A stretch of DNA of 64,000 bases, taken from the NCBI GenBank assembly GCA_018268195.1, contig JAFDWZ010000010.1:1-64000 (forward strand), given 5' to 3'. Positions 19,305 to 24,317 of the stretch are shown here, in pieces (position 1 is the stretch's first letter; each line of letters opens with the position of its first letter). This DNA is from Bacteroidota bacterium (GTDB taxonomy: Bacteria; Bacteroidota; Bacteroidia; AKYH767-A; OLB10). The translations under genes and the position numbers were made by a program. Under the pieces are notes generated by a model that saw only the letters and a list, made by a program, of their open reading frames with translations, did not search any database and had not been told where the DNA came from.

Positions 19305-21311
19305 TTATGAATTATAAGGTATGGCAATAATAAATTCTGTTTGAAATCCGGGTATTGATTTGGTTGTAATTTTGCCATTAAATGATTTTGTGATTTCATA
19401 AGCCATACTTAGGCCTAAACCCGTGCCTTTGCCTAATGGTTTGGTTGTAAAAAATGGCTCATAAATCCGATCAATAATCTCGTCACTTATACCATTCCCA
19501 TTGTCAATAATTGTTATTTCTACTGATTGACTTTTATTTTGTGTGATGATTTTTAAAACAGGATCAAAGCCGGGAAAGGATTGCATCCTTTGATACATGC
19601 TGTCAAAGGCATTGTTAATTACAATCATAACGACAGTCATTAACTCATGTGGACTGATGTTTACTTCTTTTATATGAGAGTCCTGAGATATTAGAATGCT
19701 GCAGTTAAAGTCTGCTGAGTGCGATTTGTAGCTGAATAATGCAACATTTGAAAAATCAGAAATCATTTTATTCAGATTATCAATAGTTCTTTTTTTGTTA
19801 GGCATTTGGGTATGCTTTACCATATCAAATATAATCTTCTCTGCACGCAAAGAATGTTGATAAATCAATTCTAAGTTTTTGTTTATTTCCTCACTCAATT
19901 CCTGATTTTGTATTTTAGAATCAGAATGATTCATTTCCTGAATAAGTTCGCTCGTCAGCTTGGTGAAATTAATAACAAAATTCAATGGGTTGCGCAACTC
20001 ATGAGCCAGATTTACCGACATACGCCCGAGTGAAGCCATTTTTTCGGTTTGTATCAGTTGATTTTGGGCTTTTTTGATATTTTCTAGAGCTATATTCAAT
20101 TCGGTATTGGCCTTATTGAGTTCTTTTTCTTTGCGATTCTTAAACCTATATCTTCTGAATAAACTAATCGATAATGCCAATAACATAAATACAAACAAAC
20201 CCAGTACAATCTTCTGTAATCTGTTTACCTTTTGACGCTGCATTAACGCAGTTATTTTATCCTGCTGGCGGTCAAACTCTATTCTTGTTTTCAACATGTC
20301 TACTGTTTTGTGCCGGTCTGAAGAAAACACTGAATCACGGAGGTTATAATATTTTACTAAGTAATTATTAGCTTCTTTATAATCTTTTATTTCCGAATAG
20401 TAAGTAGAAAATAAATTAAGGATTTCTATCTTTAAGTTGGTCAGTGAATATTCATTGGCAATTTCCCATGCAATCTTTAACGTGTGATATGCCGAATCAG
20501 GTTGCCCTATACCTAATAACATTCTGCTGTAAGGTATATACAACATGCATTTTCCGTAATTATCATCAGGGTCGTTCCAAAAAGTGTATATTTCATTAAA
20601 CATTTTGGAAGCCTCGGTATACTTTTGCTGTAGAGTGTAAAGATTAGCAAGAGCTACATAGCATTCAAAATATCGGTCAGATTTATTAGTAAATGTGTTT
20701 TTTACAAGTGACTGATTCAGCATGAACTCTGCATCATTCCATTGATGTAATTCTATATTACACAAACCAATGAGGTAATATACAGTTGAAAGACTACTAT
20801 CTATGGCTTCCTTCTCATAAAAATCAGCCGAAATTCGGAGATTTTCTATTGATTCATCATATTGTTTCTGCAGATAATAGATTAAACCAATCTGCATAAA
20901 TGAATAAGCCTCTCCAACAGAATTTTTTTGTTTTCTAAACTGGGTAATTGCACGGTAGAGATATTCCATAGCCCGGCTATCATCTAACTGTCGAATATAA
21001 ACTTGTGCCTGATAAATGTCGCTGTAGGCAATTAAATCCGGACGATTTAATTGCCTGCCTGCAATCCTCAAACTATCTATCCAGTAAACTGCAGAATCGG
21101 TAATCTTATCAGCATACTGATAATTATTAATGATTTGCTTAATTAATTCAACTGAAACAGTATCCTGTTCGCGTAGTTTCTGATATCGCTCTATCAGTTC
21201 CAGATTATTATTACCTTTCTGAGCTATCATCTCAAGTGGAAGCATGAATAATACCACTTGTAAAAAACCAAGAAAAAGGAGGTTGCGGTAATGATGCTTT
21301 TGGAAAGCCAT
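19305..21311 (-). CDS. TPR-containing sensor histidine kinase (orphan)
   Basis: A 668-residue membrane kinase. An N-terminal signal/anchor helix is followed by a periplasmic region of TPR-like helices (residues about 40-340), a second membrane helix (LQKIVLGLFVFMLLALSISL), a coiled coil, then the kinase core. The phospho-accepting His is in LAHELRNPLNF at about residue 440. The N box has VINNAFDSM, and the G boxes DNGNGIS and GKGTGLGLSMAYE are intact. ATG at 21311 is preferred over the upstream TTG at 21335 because that TTG lies inside the -7 promoter element. No response regulator lies directly beside it, although one is 67 bases upstream in the same orientation as part of the next system. 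Confidence 0.9.
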   Translation of the reverse strand: MAFQKHHYRNLLFLGFLQVVLFMLPLEMIAQKGNNNLELIERYQKLREQDTVSVELIKQIINNYQYADKITDSAVYWIDSLRIAGRQLNRPDLIAYSDIYQAQVYIRQLDDSRAMEYLYRAITQFRKQKNSVGEAYSFMQIGLIYYLQKQYDESIENLRISADFYEKEAIDSSLSTVYYLIGLCNIELHQWNDAEFMLNQSLVKNTFTNKSDRYFECYVALANLYTLQQKYTEASKMFNEIYTFWNDPDDNYGKCMLYIPYSRMLLGIGQPDSAYHTLKIAWEIANEYSLTNLKIEILNLFSTYYSEIKDYKEANNYLVKYYNLRDSVFSSDRHKTVDMLKTRIEFDRQQDKITALMQRQKVNRLQKIVLGLFVFMLLALSISLFRRYRFKNRKEKELNKANTELNIALENIKKAQNQLIQTEKMASLGRMSVNLAHELRNPLNFVINFTKLTSELIQEMNHSDSKIQNQELSEEINKNLELIYQHSLRAEKIIFDMVKHTQMPNKKRTIDNLNKMISDFSNVALFSYKSHSADFNCSILISQDSHIKEVNISPHELMTVVMIVINNAFDSMYQRMQSFPGFDPVLKIITQNKSQSVEITIIDNGNGISDEIIDRIYEPFFTTKPLGKGTGLGLSMAYEITKSFNGKITTKSIPGFQTEFIIAIPYNS

Positions 21312-21332
21312 AGGATGCAGGGTTAATGCCTC

Positions 21333-21340
21333 CAAATATA
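21333..21340 (-). promoter_or_regulatory. Candidate -7 element (TATATTTG) of the TPR kinase
   Basis: TATATTTG on the minus strand lies 21 bases upstream of the ATG at 21311, between this kinase and the response regulator that ends at 21379. It suggests that the kinase has its own promoter. Confidence 0.5.
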
Positions 21341-21378: not shown

Positions 21379-22086
21379 TTATTCTATTACAACCAGCCGA
21401 TAGCCATTGCCATGTACATTCAGCAGTTCTACCTTAGGGTCATCTTTCAGATATTTTCTGATTTTGGTAATAAAAACATCCATACTTCTTGCTGTAAAAT
21501 AGTTGTCATCGTTCCAAATTTTTCGCAGTGCAACTTCACGAGGTAAAATATCATTCAGATAAAGGCATAATAATGCCAGTAGTGCAGCTTCCTTTGGCGA
21601 AAGTTTCTGTACTTTTCCGAATCCATCTATTGTGCGTAACCGGCTATTGAATTTAAAACCTCCTATAGTGAATTCTACCTGCTCATTAGCTGCTTTTACT
21701 ATCGTTTCACTTCTATTAAGCAAAGCCTTTATTTTTAACAATAGAATTTCTGAATCAAATGGCTTTGTTATATAATCGTCAGCACCAATTTTAAAACCTC
21801 GTATCATATCTGTCTTCATAGATTTAGCAGTGAGGAAAATGATAGGTACATGATGATCTTTTTCTTTGATTTTCTCAGCTAAGGTAAAGCCATCCATAAT
21901 AGGCATCATCACATCAAGGATGCACAAATTGAATTTTCCAGGTTCGAATTTTTCCAAAGCCTGTTGCCCGTCACGATAGAGATACACGTCATAATCGTGA
22001 AGAGCAAGATAATCTTTCAGAACCATACCAAAGTTGGTATCGTCTTCTGCTATCAAAATTTTAGTTCTTCCTGTAAGTATCGACAT
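21379..22086 (-). CDS. OmpR-family response regulator of the polyproline-kinase system
   Basis: A 235-residue response regulator with receiver residues E14/D15 (IAEDD), phospho-acceptor D58 (ILDVMMP) and K108 (ITKPF), and a C-terminal winged-helix domain ending in HGNGYRLVV. ATG at 22086 is chosen because the receiver fold begins there; a longer reading would run into the kinase gene. It lies 31 bases downstream of the kinase gene at 22118-23842, its evident partner. Confidence 0.93.
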   Translation of the reverse strand: MSILTGRTKILIAEDDTNFGMVLKDYLALHDYDVYLYRDGQQALEKFEPGKFNLCILDVMMPIMDGFTLAEKIKEKDHHVPIIFLTAKSMKTDMIRGFKIGADDYITKPFDSEILLLKIKALLNRSETIVKAANEQVEFTIGGFKFNSRLRTIDGFGKVQKLSPKEAALLALLCLYLNDILPREVALRKIWNDDNYFTARSMDVFITKIRKYLKDDPKVELLNVHGNGYRLVVIE

Positions 22087-22117: not shown

Positions 22118-23842
22118 TTATTTGAATTTTTTATTTTTTTCATTATGCTGTATGGGTAACAGTACTTCCATTGTGGTTCCGGCATTGCGTGAACTTTCCA
22201 ATACACATATCTCGCCCTGATGCGCCTGTATAATAGCTTTGGCAAAACTTAAGCCCAAACCAAACCCTTTCACATCATGCAAATTGCCTGTGGTGGCGCG
22301 ATAAAATTTTTCGAAAATATTTTTTTGTACTTCCTTGCTCATCCCAATGCCGTTGTCTTTTACTAATATCTGTACAGAGTTATGAATGTTGGTAGTGGTG
22401 ATAATTATTTCAGGTTTTTCAGGACTGTATTTGTTAGCATTATCCAGCAAGTTGACAATTGAATTGTAAATCAGGTGCTGATCACCCGTAATGATACTCT
22501 GTGCAGCATTCAGATAAAGTTCTATTTTCCCACCCTTAGATTCAACCTGCAATTTAAACTGTGAAGCAGCTTTGGTTAGTAAATCATGTAAATTGAATTT
22601 TTCTAATTGCAGATTCAATCCTTTTTTATCCAACAATGCCATTTGTAATATAGATTCAACGTGGTTGTGCATTCGTTGATTTTCTTCTTTGATGATATTC
22701 AGATAGCGATGAACGGCATCAGGGTTTTGGGCAATTAAAGGATTTCCGGCTGCATCACTTGCCAGCGATATAGTTGCTATAGGTGTTTTAAATTCATGAG
22801 TCATGTTATTGATAAAGTCGGTCTTTATATCCGATATTTTCTTTTGTCTGAATAAGATGTAAATGGTATAGGCAGTTCCCATCAGCATGATAATTATAAA
22901 TAAGGAGGAACTGATAAGCATAACCCACATGGTTGAAAGTACATATCTGAAACTATCAGGAAAATAAACAGATAGTAGCACAGGTTTTGCGAGTAAATCA
23001 TTAGGGAATAAATCTGTTTTATATCTGCTTGATAGTATTTCTTTTTTATTCACAGGGGCATCAGTTGACATAATGTTATTTTCACCAACATTGATTACTC
23101 CGAAATGGTATGCTGTTTCAATACCTCTGCTCGATAACTCTGTGCGTATTGCAGAGTCTAATTGAGTTGGATTAATTCTGCTTTCAATATCTTTTTCATC
23201 AGTTATAAATTCAAAAGCCATGTTTTGCACTACCTTATTCCAGTTATTTATTTTGGCTTCAATTTTAGATTTCTGTTTTTCGAGAATTGTATTTCTAAGT
23301 GCTTCTGATTCTATGGAGTTATGTTCTGTTGTTTTGGTGGAGTCGTCAATAGTCAGCACCTGCCTGTTATGGCGAATTACAATCCTTCGTCCACCCATGT
23401 GACTGATGACCATTCTTATTTCATCTTTGTTGAAATTTGCAGGCAAGGGTGGGTCAATAAGTTCGGGTGGGACTGGTGGACTTGGTGGACTTGGTGGAGC
23501 AGGAGGAACGGTTGGTAATTCACTATCATTAGCTGACCCAAGTAAATGATTTTTTACAAGTTTCTCCTTTTCAAGCTGCTGTTCGTCCAAAATTCTCTTT
23601 TCGCGAAGTAAGGAATAAATAGAATCATTGTTAAAAGCAACAAAGCTGTTACTGATAATATTATAAACTTCCTTTTTTTCTAATTTATTGGCAACGGCCA
23701 TCAATGCATCATTCGCCCGCTGGTTAAACTGTTGTTCTTTCAGATGGTAATCGTGCAATATCCAATTTACCTGCATAGATATTATACCTATGAAAGAACC
23801 GGTAATGAGAATGGTAATTAATATAATCTTACTCTTATTCAC
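22118..23842 (-). CDS. Sensor histidine kinase with polyproline periplasmic segment
   Basis: A 574-residue two-helix membrane kinase. TM1 is at about residues 4-24 and TM2 at about 300-330. The periplasmic domain between them contains a striking proline stretch at residues 110-134 (14 of 25 are Pro, with PPAPP and PPVPPELID). The kinase core has the phospho-accepting His in MTHEFKTPIA (about residue 349), an N box LLDNANKYS, and DNGIGMS and GFGLGLSFA G boxes. No ATG is available; GTG at 23842 begins right before TM1 and lies 5 bases after a TAAATTTG element, while a TTG at 23872 would lie upstream of that element. The response regulator follows, and a secreted polyproline protein is encoded divergently. 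Confidence 0.9.
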   Translation of the reverse strand: MNKSKIILITILITGSFIGIISMQVNWILHDYHLKEQQFNQRANDALMAVANKLEKKEVYNIISNSFVAFNNDSIYSLLREKRILDEQQLEKEKLVKNHLLGSANDSELPTVPPAPPSPPSPPVPPELIDPPLPANFNKDEIRMVISHMGGRRIVIRHNRQVLTIDDSTKTTEHNSIESEALRNTILEKQKSKIEAKINNWNKVVQNMAFEFITDEKDIESRINPTQLDSAIRTELSSRGIETAYHFGVINVGENNIMSTDAPVNKKEILSSRYKTDLFPNDLLAKPVLLSVYFPDSFRYVLSTMWVMLISSSLFIIIMLMGTAYTIYILFRQKKISDIKTDFINNMTHEFKTPIATISLASDAAGNPLIAQNPDAVHRYLNIIKEENQRMHNHVESILQMALLDKKGLNLQLEKFNLHDLLTKAASQFKLQVESKGGKIELYLNAAQSIITGDQHLIYNSIVNLLDNANKYSPEKPEIIITTTNIHNSVQILVKDNGIGMSKEVQKNIFEKFYRATTGNLHDVKGFGLGLSFAKAIIQAHQGEICVLESSRNAGTTMEVLLPIQHNEKNKKFK

Positions 23843-23847
23843 AATTG

Positions 23848-23855
23848 CAAATTTA
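23848..23855 (-). promoter_or_regulatory. Candidate -7 element (TAAATTTG) of the two-component operon
   Basis: TAAATTTG on the minus strand sits 5 bases before the GTG at 23842, so the mRNA would be almost leaderless. It faces away from the TAAATTTG at 23941 that serves the polyproline gene. Confidence 0.5.
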
Positions 23856-23940
23856 AACTTCTTTGTTACCAATTTGTGTGTTTAACAAATCTTTAACCCA
23901 TCTTAACTGAATCATAACCCATGACTACTTTGGGCTAAGG

Positions 23941-23948
23941 TAAATTTG
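23941..23948 (+). promoter_or_regulatory. Candidate -7 element (TAAATTTG) of the polyproline gene
   Basis: TAAATTTG lies 27 bases before the ATG at 23976. The 85 bases between this and the opposing element at 23848-23855 are where a shared regulator would bind. Confidence 0.5.
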
Positions 23949-23975
23949 ATAATTGAAAATTTAAATATCAAGAAC

Positions 23976-24317
23976 ATGAATAAGAAAATTGTTTTGAGTG
24001 CTGTTGCTTTCATAACTGCACTATGCGCACACGGTCAAGTCCCTACAGAAAAGGAGGGAAGTTATCATCTTCAGCTTAAAATTAGCAGTAATGATTCAAC
24101 TATTGATATTGACACAACTTTTGCTGATGTCAATTCCATGAATGATTATTTAAAGGTCAACAACATTAAATTACCGGAGCCTCCTAATCCTGTAGCAGCA
24201 ATAATGCCTCCCAATCCGCCAGCACCTCCCTGCATTAAAGCATCACATGCACCTTTGCCTCCGCCTGCACCACCGTTGCCACCTACACCGCCAACACCTC
24301 CTGAGTTAAAAGATTAA
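23976..24317 (+). CDS. Small secreted polyproline protein
   Basis: A 113-residue protein with a signal peptide (cut after CAHG-Q near residue 20), a beta-type segment (residues 28-64, with DSTIDIDTTF) and a C-terminal region of residues 67-109 in which 22 of 43 residues are Pro. It ends in PPTPPELKD. The neighbouring kinase has PPVPPELID in its periplasmic segment. ATG at 23976 is used; the TTG at 23946 lies within the promoter element. No function is known to me. Its position opposite the two-component operon suggests that it is a target or ligand of that system, which is inference. Confidence 0.8.
   Translation: MNKKIVLSAVAFITALCAHGQVPTEKEGSYHLQLKISSNDSTIDIDTTFADVNSMNDYLKVNNIKLPEPPNPVAAIMPPNPPAPPCIKASHAPLPPPAPPLPPTPPTPPELKD

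Follow-up and report, generated by a model that had tools for sequence, protein, structure and literature searches.

The window, i.e., the complete stretch of 64,000 nucleotides of Bacteroidota DNA that was analysed, contains a two-component system and a divergently encoded secreted protein. The sensor histidine kinase occupies positions 22118..23842 on the minus strand, with a GTG start at 23840-23842 and a stop at 22118. It matches the Pfam families HisKA and HATPase_c, has the domain order transmembrane segment, periplasmic sensor, transmembrane segment, HisKA, HATPase, and gave no match to HAMP in Pfam. Within its own genome, a single full-length match was found for this kinase, the runner-up being its own paralogue (31% over the catalytic part). 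Downstream of it, separated by 31 bases, lies a response regulator (21379..22086, minus strand) with the Pfam domains Response_reg and Trans_reg_C. With this composition and the adjoining HisKA/HATPase kinase, the pair is a two-component system of the OmpR/PhoB class. The top NCBIfam match of the regulator was the RprY equivalog NF051850, at 285.4 bits and thus below the curated cut-off of 370, for which reason we call it RprY-like only. A second histidine kinase, which carries TPR repeats, is encoded in the same orientation 43 bases downstream of the regulator (19305-21335, minus strand).

The periplasmic part of the kinase displays a polyproline tract (23441..23515, minus strand; residues 110-134 in GTG numbering) with 14 prolines in 25 residues, which contains the string PPVPPELID. 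In the AF2 model (pLDDT 76), the tract sits in a stretch of very low confidence, approximately residues 100-178, which joins the long first helix to the folded part of the sensor, and this loop is probably disordered. On the plus strand, the divergent gene (23976..24317) encodes a protein of 113 residues, hereafter the partner, made up of a signal peptide, a predicted beta-hairpin with an IDTTF motif, a short helix, and a polyproline tail. Its AF2 model places strands at residues 29-38 and 41-49, a helix at 52-61, and a tail without regular structure; because the pLDDT is 65, only the order of these elements was used. The tail (24174..24302, plus strand) holds 22 prolines in 43 residues and ends in PPTPPELKD. 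Both tracts had been pointed out in a preliminary description of this DNA and were confirmed from the sequence. IDxT strings had by eye suggested that the partner hairpin is homologous to the kinase sensor, a candidate that was rejected at an hhalign probability of about 0.1%. Hence, the earlier idea that the partner is a decoy of the sensor loop fails in its homology version, while a decoy that mimics the polyproline only would still be conceivable. The window partner displayed no T9SS type A sorting domain (PF18962/TIGR04183) in Pfam, NCBIfam, or searches with a local HMM. From this absence and the signal peptide, we infer that it stays in the periplasm. Loss of the T9SS itself was rejected as the cause of the missing domain, since all 42 genomes of the order, the present one among them, encode many PF18962 proteins.

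The region between the two genes provided insights into how they might be controlled. Two TAAATTTG elements, predicted to be the -7 elements of the two promoters, are oriented outward in opposite directions and separated by 85 bases, just as had been described. That of the kinase (23848-23855, minus strand) lies 5 nt ahead of the GTG start, which predicts a leaderless mRNA, and that of the partner (23941-23948, plus strand) lies 27 nt past the start of the last of four tandem boxes. These predicted response-regulator boxes (23882..23918, plus strand) read TTAAC at 23882-23886, 23893-23897, and 23903-23907 and ATAAC at 23914-23918, and are thus spaced by 11/10/11. By sequence, they are tandem direct repeats about 10-11 bp apart at a target promoter, as in the OmpR/PhoB class, and the array and the geometry of the -7 element together make the layout expected of an activated promoter of that type. 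In 58 loci, including the window (23840-23855), the -7 element of the kinase ends 4-6 nt before the start codon, which points to a kinase mRNA that is conserved and probably leaderless.

We traced the kinase through its genus, family, and order and through a sample of the class, together with 80 named loci that included Bacteroidetes bacterium OLB10 (of the same genus), Pontibacter, Rufibacter, Dyadobacter, Roseivirga, Saprospiraceae, and Prolixibacteraceae. Many of these assemblies are fragmented, and gene starts were called mechanically. Among 212 oriented loci, 38 non-redundant ones displayed a divergent gene whose product belongs to a single secreted family, identified with a short HMM of the segment K-x-I-x-I...NGK...DTTF, a core segment that corresponds to no Pfam family. 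A search with this core domain in the 42 genomes of the order returned exactly one partner copy in each of 20 genomes and none elsewhere. By sequence, the partner family is conserved beside the kinase across Bacteroidota, with C-termini that are highly variable. The partner counts are lower bounds, since several loci (among them L075, L112, L159, L164, and L185) have a divergent secreted gene with the four-box promoter and a different hairpin, and these genes may be additional members of the family to which the HMM is blind. At another locus (L074:678-2459, minus strand), the divergent gene encodes a secreted protein of 594 residues with a similar-looking N-terminal segment, PDZ domains, and a T9SS sorting domain.

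The box array accompanies the partner closely. Four or more boxes, with one mismatch allowed, were found in 34 of the 38 partner loci, while kinases without a recognised partner have two most often, and none of 201 reversed-sequence controls had three or more. In most partner loci, the window included, the TAnnTTTG of the partner is placed 27 nt downstream of where the last box begins; its counterpart for the kinase precedes the first box by 34-36 nt. This 3-Mb genome has a single exact triple box; across the 42 genomes it has 24 matches, most of which adjoin the kinase, compared with 2 matches in the reversed control. In four genomes of the family (G006, G011, G012, and G016), the triple box is found away from the kinase and upstream of a relocated partner gene. 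Since the array precedes the partner even where the partner has moved, the boxes belong to the partner gene and not merely to the intergenic region. Because the triple box is nearly unique in each genome, the partner looks like the principal target of the system. No large box regulon was found in this genome, which has one exact triple box only and in which the double box is rarer than its reversed control. One genome (G039, locus L281) carries a second exact triple TTAAC box upstream of a gene for a DegP/HtrA-family protease, pointing to a putative envelope-stress regulon, and in another (G005) an exact triple box stands ahead of a gene whose product looks like a MoxR-type ATPase.

Some four-box loci displayed a different content in the slot of the partner. 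In 14 four-box loci without a partner ORF, an intrinsic-terminator-like site lies approximately 75-190 nt after the promoter region, a site found in none of 34 partner loci; these loci include L160, L162, L163, L171, L207, L221, L231, L234, and L018, in each case upstream of the kinase. We predict that a small RNA is encoded there. The sequence GTGCAAAA was found repeatedly ahead of the kinase, at 12 loci compared with 2 on the other strand, and in several it stands just before these terminators. The predicted small RNAs gave no significant match in Rfam. At two further loci (L095 and L020), the kinase is preceded by a four-box array, but no partner ORF could be recognised and no terminator was detected.

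We scored proline richness as the maximum number of prolines in any 25 residues. By this score, the kinase and the partner are the top two of the 51 ORFs of the window, with 14 and 13 prolines, and the third scores 5. As a base rate, only 2 of 585 other ORFs of at least 150 residues from related loci reach 8 prolines in 25 residues. The proline richness of both ORFs is thus far beyond chance. The preliminary description had taken a motif common to both tracts, PPxPPELxD, as the feature that links the two proteins. This part of its argument was not sustained: when only the non-proline residues were shuffled, the 9-mer match was equalled or bettered in 1874 of 2000 trials, so that such a match is to be expected of two PPx-periodic tracts and is uninformative. 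Moreover, in two congeners the kinase retains PPVPPELND but the partner terminates in PPPPPEIGE. We therefore rejected the 9-mer as a conserved shared motif.

That neighbouring genes carry similar tracts could also mean that one gene received its tract from the other, be it by local duplication, which had been offered as an alternative for a low-complexity tract, or by gene conversion. At the DNA level, only 15 of the 27 bases that encode the two 9-mers are identical and the codons differ, and the local similarity score of the tracts is no higher than that of synonymous permutations (141/500). Tract duplication was rejected on these grounds, and we consider copying between the genes very improbable.

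What the two proteins do share is the gain and loss of proline richness. Among 201 distinct Bacteroidota kinases, a divergent partner was found beside 13 of the 14 that have polyproline (at least 8 prolines in 25 residues) and beside 25 of the 187 others (p=7e-10). Here, absence of a partner means absence of a divergent partner, relocated copies having been sought within the genomes of the order. Within the 38 partner loci, the partner itself is polyproline in 11 of 13 loci with a polyproline kinase and in 1 of the 25 others (counts 11/2/1/24 at cut-offs of 8 and 7, p=7e-7). These cut-offs were chosen after the data had been seen, and alternative cut-offs gave p from about 1e-6 to 6e-5. The proline scores of kinase and partner are correlated (Spearman 0.81 over the 38 divergent partner loci, and 0.68 with four relocated pairs added).

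With the whole family removed, the presence signal holds (5/5 compared with 23/175, p=7e-5). In Pagel-type tests on the tree of the kinase catalytic part, the dependent four-state model was preferred to the independent model, both for the presence of the partner (p=2.6e-4) and for its polyproline (p=1.6e-5), and about four separate polyproline clades were counted on the tree. In the genus g5, two genomes have the partner, the tracts, and four boxes, and the others have no partner or tract and two boxes; the genus g2 displays the same contrast. In these genera, the partner, the kinase polyproline, and the second pair of boxes come and go together. Exceptions exist: at L278 and L035, partners with 8 or 11 prolines in 25 residues stand opposite kinases with only 3 and 6, and one genome (G003) keeps a shortened kinase tract of 8 prolines with no detectable partner. 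Occurrence of the kinase in many genomes without the small gene had been named beforehand as an observation that would refute the link. Such genomes are indeed many, and their kinases almost all lack polyproline, so that the link between tract and partner is unbroken. Meanwhile, polyproline is absent from many kinase-partner pairs and therefore cannot be needed for any general mechanism.

These results bear on the notion that the shared polyproline has no meaning at the protein level and reflects either independent drift of low-complexity sequence or translational co-regulation through EF-P. Proline tracts evolve fast, the C-termini of the partners vary widely, and the 9-mer match is within chance, all of which would suit such an origin. 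It is difficult to reconcile with the base rate in other ORFs, with the correlated evolution, and with the repeated appearance of polyproline clades. Coupling to EF-P, as suggested in the preliminary description, found no support; in a published test on EnvZ, polyproline stalling had little effect on the kinase level, and the motif had a role in contacts instead (PMC6023141). We consider this explanation improbable.

The partner family also differs in its predicted destination. We scored the T9SS sorting domain by means of a local HMM, whose assignments Pfam bore out for several partners; truncated genes were omitted. A partner without the domain pairs with 12 of 13 polyproline kinases and with 3 of 25 other kinases (p=2e-6, a value not corrected for the tree); conversely, 22 of the 25 non-polyproline kinases pair with a partner that carries it. 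Many partners carry the T9SS type A sorting domain, and these probably reach the surface, where they would be remote from the kinase. This favours another possibility, namely that the partner serves the system solely as its main output, in the form of an envelope or surface protein which copes with the stress and exerts no feedback, and that the tracts are rigid spacers or docking sites for the same third protein. Its apparent position as principal target would suit that role as well. By itself, this leaves unexplained both the joint appearance of polyproline in kinase and partner and the association of polyproline with partners that lack the sorting domain, and we hold it as a tentative alternative, possible but not probable. 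The split between sorting domain and polyproline is to us the most thought-provoking regularity of the data, for a partner that lacks the domain would be expected to remain where the sensor is, in the periplasm.

Based on these findings, we postulate, with about as much confidence as doubt, that the main target of this RprXY-like system is its own periplasmic partner, which acts back on the kinase via the polyproline tracts. Binding of the regulator and contact between partner and kinase are proposed from sequence comparison, and feedback from analogy. First, the response regulator would bind the four TTAAC boxes and drive the partner from a promoter of fixed geometry, a step with strong comparative support; two boxes also stand at the kinase promoter, so that the system would control itself as well as the partner. 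The window partner would then remain in the periplasm, as its signal peptide and missing sorting domain indicate. There, as the co-variation suggests, the polyproline tracts may allow it to act on the kinase, whether it touches the kinase loop directly or competes with the kinase for a common proline-binding factor. As proposed for CpxP, and by analogy with it, the result may be negative feedback, with the kinase held in check for as long as the partner is not titrated away by envelope stress. A more speculative extension, which we consider rather doubtful, is a Bacteroidota-wide class of two-component systems tuned by a secreted 'DTTF' partner in two interchangeable forms. One would be a T9SS-exported partner with a plain sensor, which might let the kinase keep track of T9SS or envelope traffic; the other would be a periplasmic polyproline partner with a polyproline sensor loop. 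In such a class, the module that links partner and system would be the polyproline tract in place of the sorting domain.

Collectively, the kinase and the partner are apparently controlled through a common switch, and among related bacteria their proline tracts tend to be gained or lost jointly, which suggests that the secreted partner acts back on the sensor. The functional link put forward in the preliminary description is thus supported, on the grounds of the common box array that also accompanies relocated partner genes, the conserved partner family, and the co-varying polyproline. These findings provide a widespread type of Bacteroidota sensor kinase with a candidate accessory protein, and a periplasmic polyproline tract with a testable role. 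Four TTAAC boxes at fixed spacing make up a readable regulatory code; if our reading is correct, they would be a marker by which the genes that such systems target could be located in any genome.

Among known systems, RprX-RprY of Bacteroides and Porphyromonas is similar in the top NCBIfam match of the regulator and in the adjacency of kinase and regulator, an arrangement reported from Bacteroidetes (PMC3646045). It differs in that the regulator described here scores below the curated RprY cut-off. In the literature that was searched, we found no mention of a partner or of TTAAC boxes.

The arrangement is also reminiscent of CpxRA-CpxP of Enterobacteria, in which the gene of CpxP is likewise divergent and degP is a Cpx target. 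As there, a secreted auxiliary is encoded beside the system, apparently under the control of the response regulator, and in one relative (G039) a DegP-family gene is a further probable target. CpxP is a strongly Cpx-induced periplasmic auxiliary reported to be an inhibitor, although in one relative it is a matter of debate whether it inhibits globally (PMC6153362). In contrast to CpxP, the partner has a predicted beta-hairpin and a tail, and it displayed no sequence relation to the CpxP/Spy family (no match in Pfam or NCBIfam for the window partner, nor in Pfam for its relatives).

The closest precedent for the tracts themselves is EnvZ-MzrA of Enterobacteria, in which the periplasmic VVPPA of EnvZ is needed for full contact with MzrA and co-occurs phylogenetically with it (PMC6023141). 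In both cases, periplasmic polyproline of a histidine kinase co-occurs with the gene of a modulator or, here, a candidate modulator. MzrA is an integral membrane protein, whereas the partner is soluble by prediction and divergently encoded. Furthermore, the motif of EnvZ is only VVPPA, whereas the kinase tracts described here hold 8-14 prolines in 25 residues and the partner has a tract too. If the proposed reading is correct, the EnvZ-MzrA observation would be extended to another phylum.
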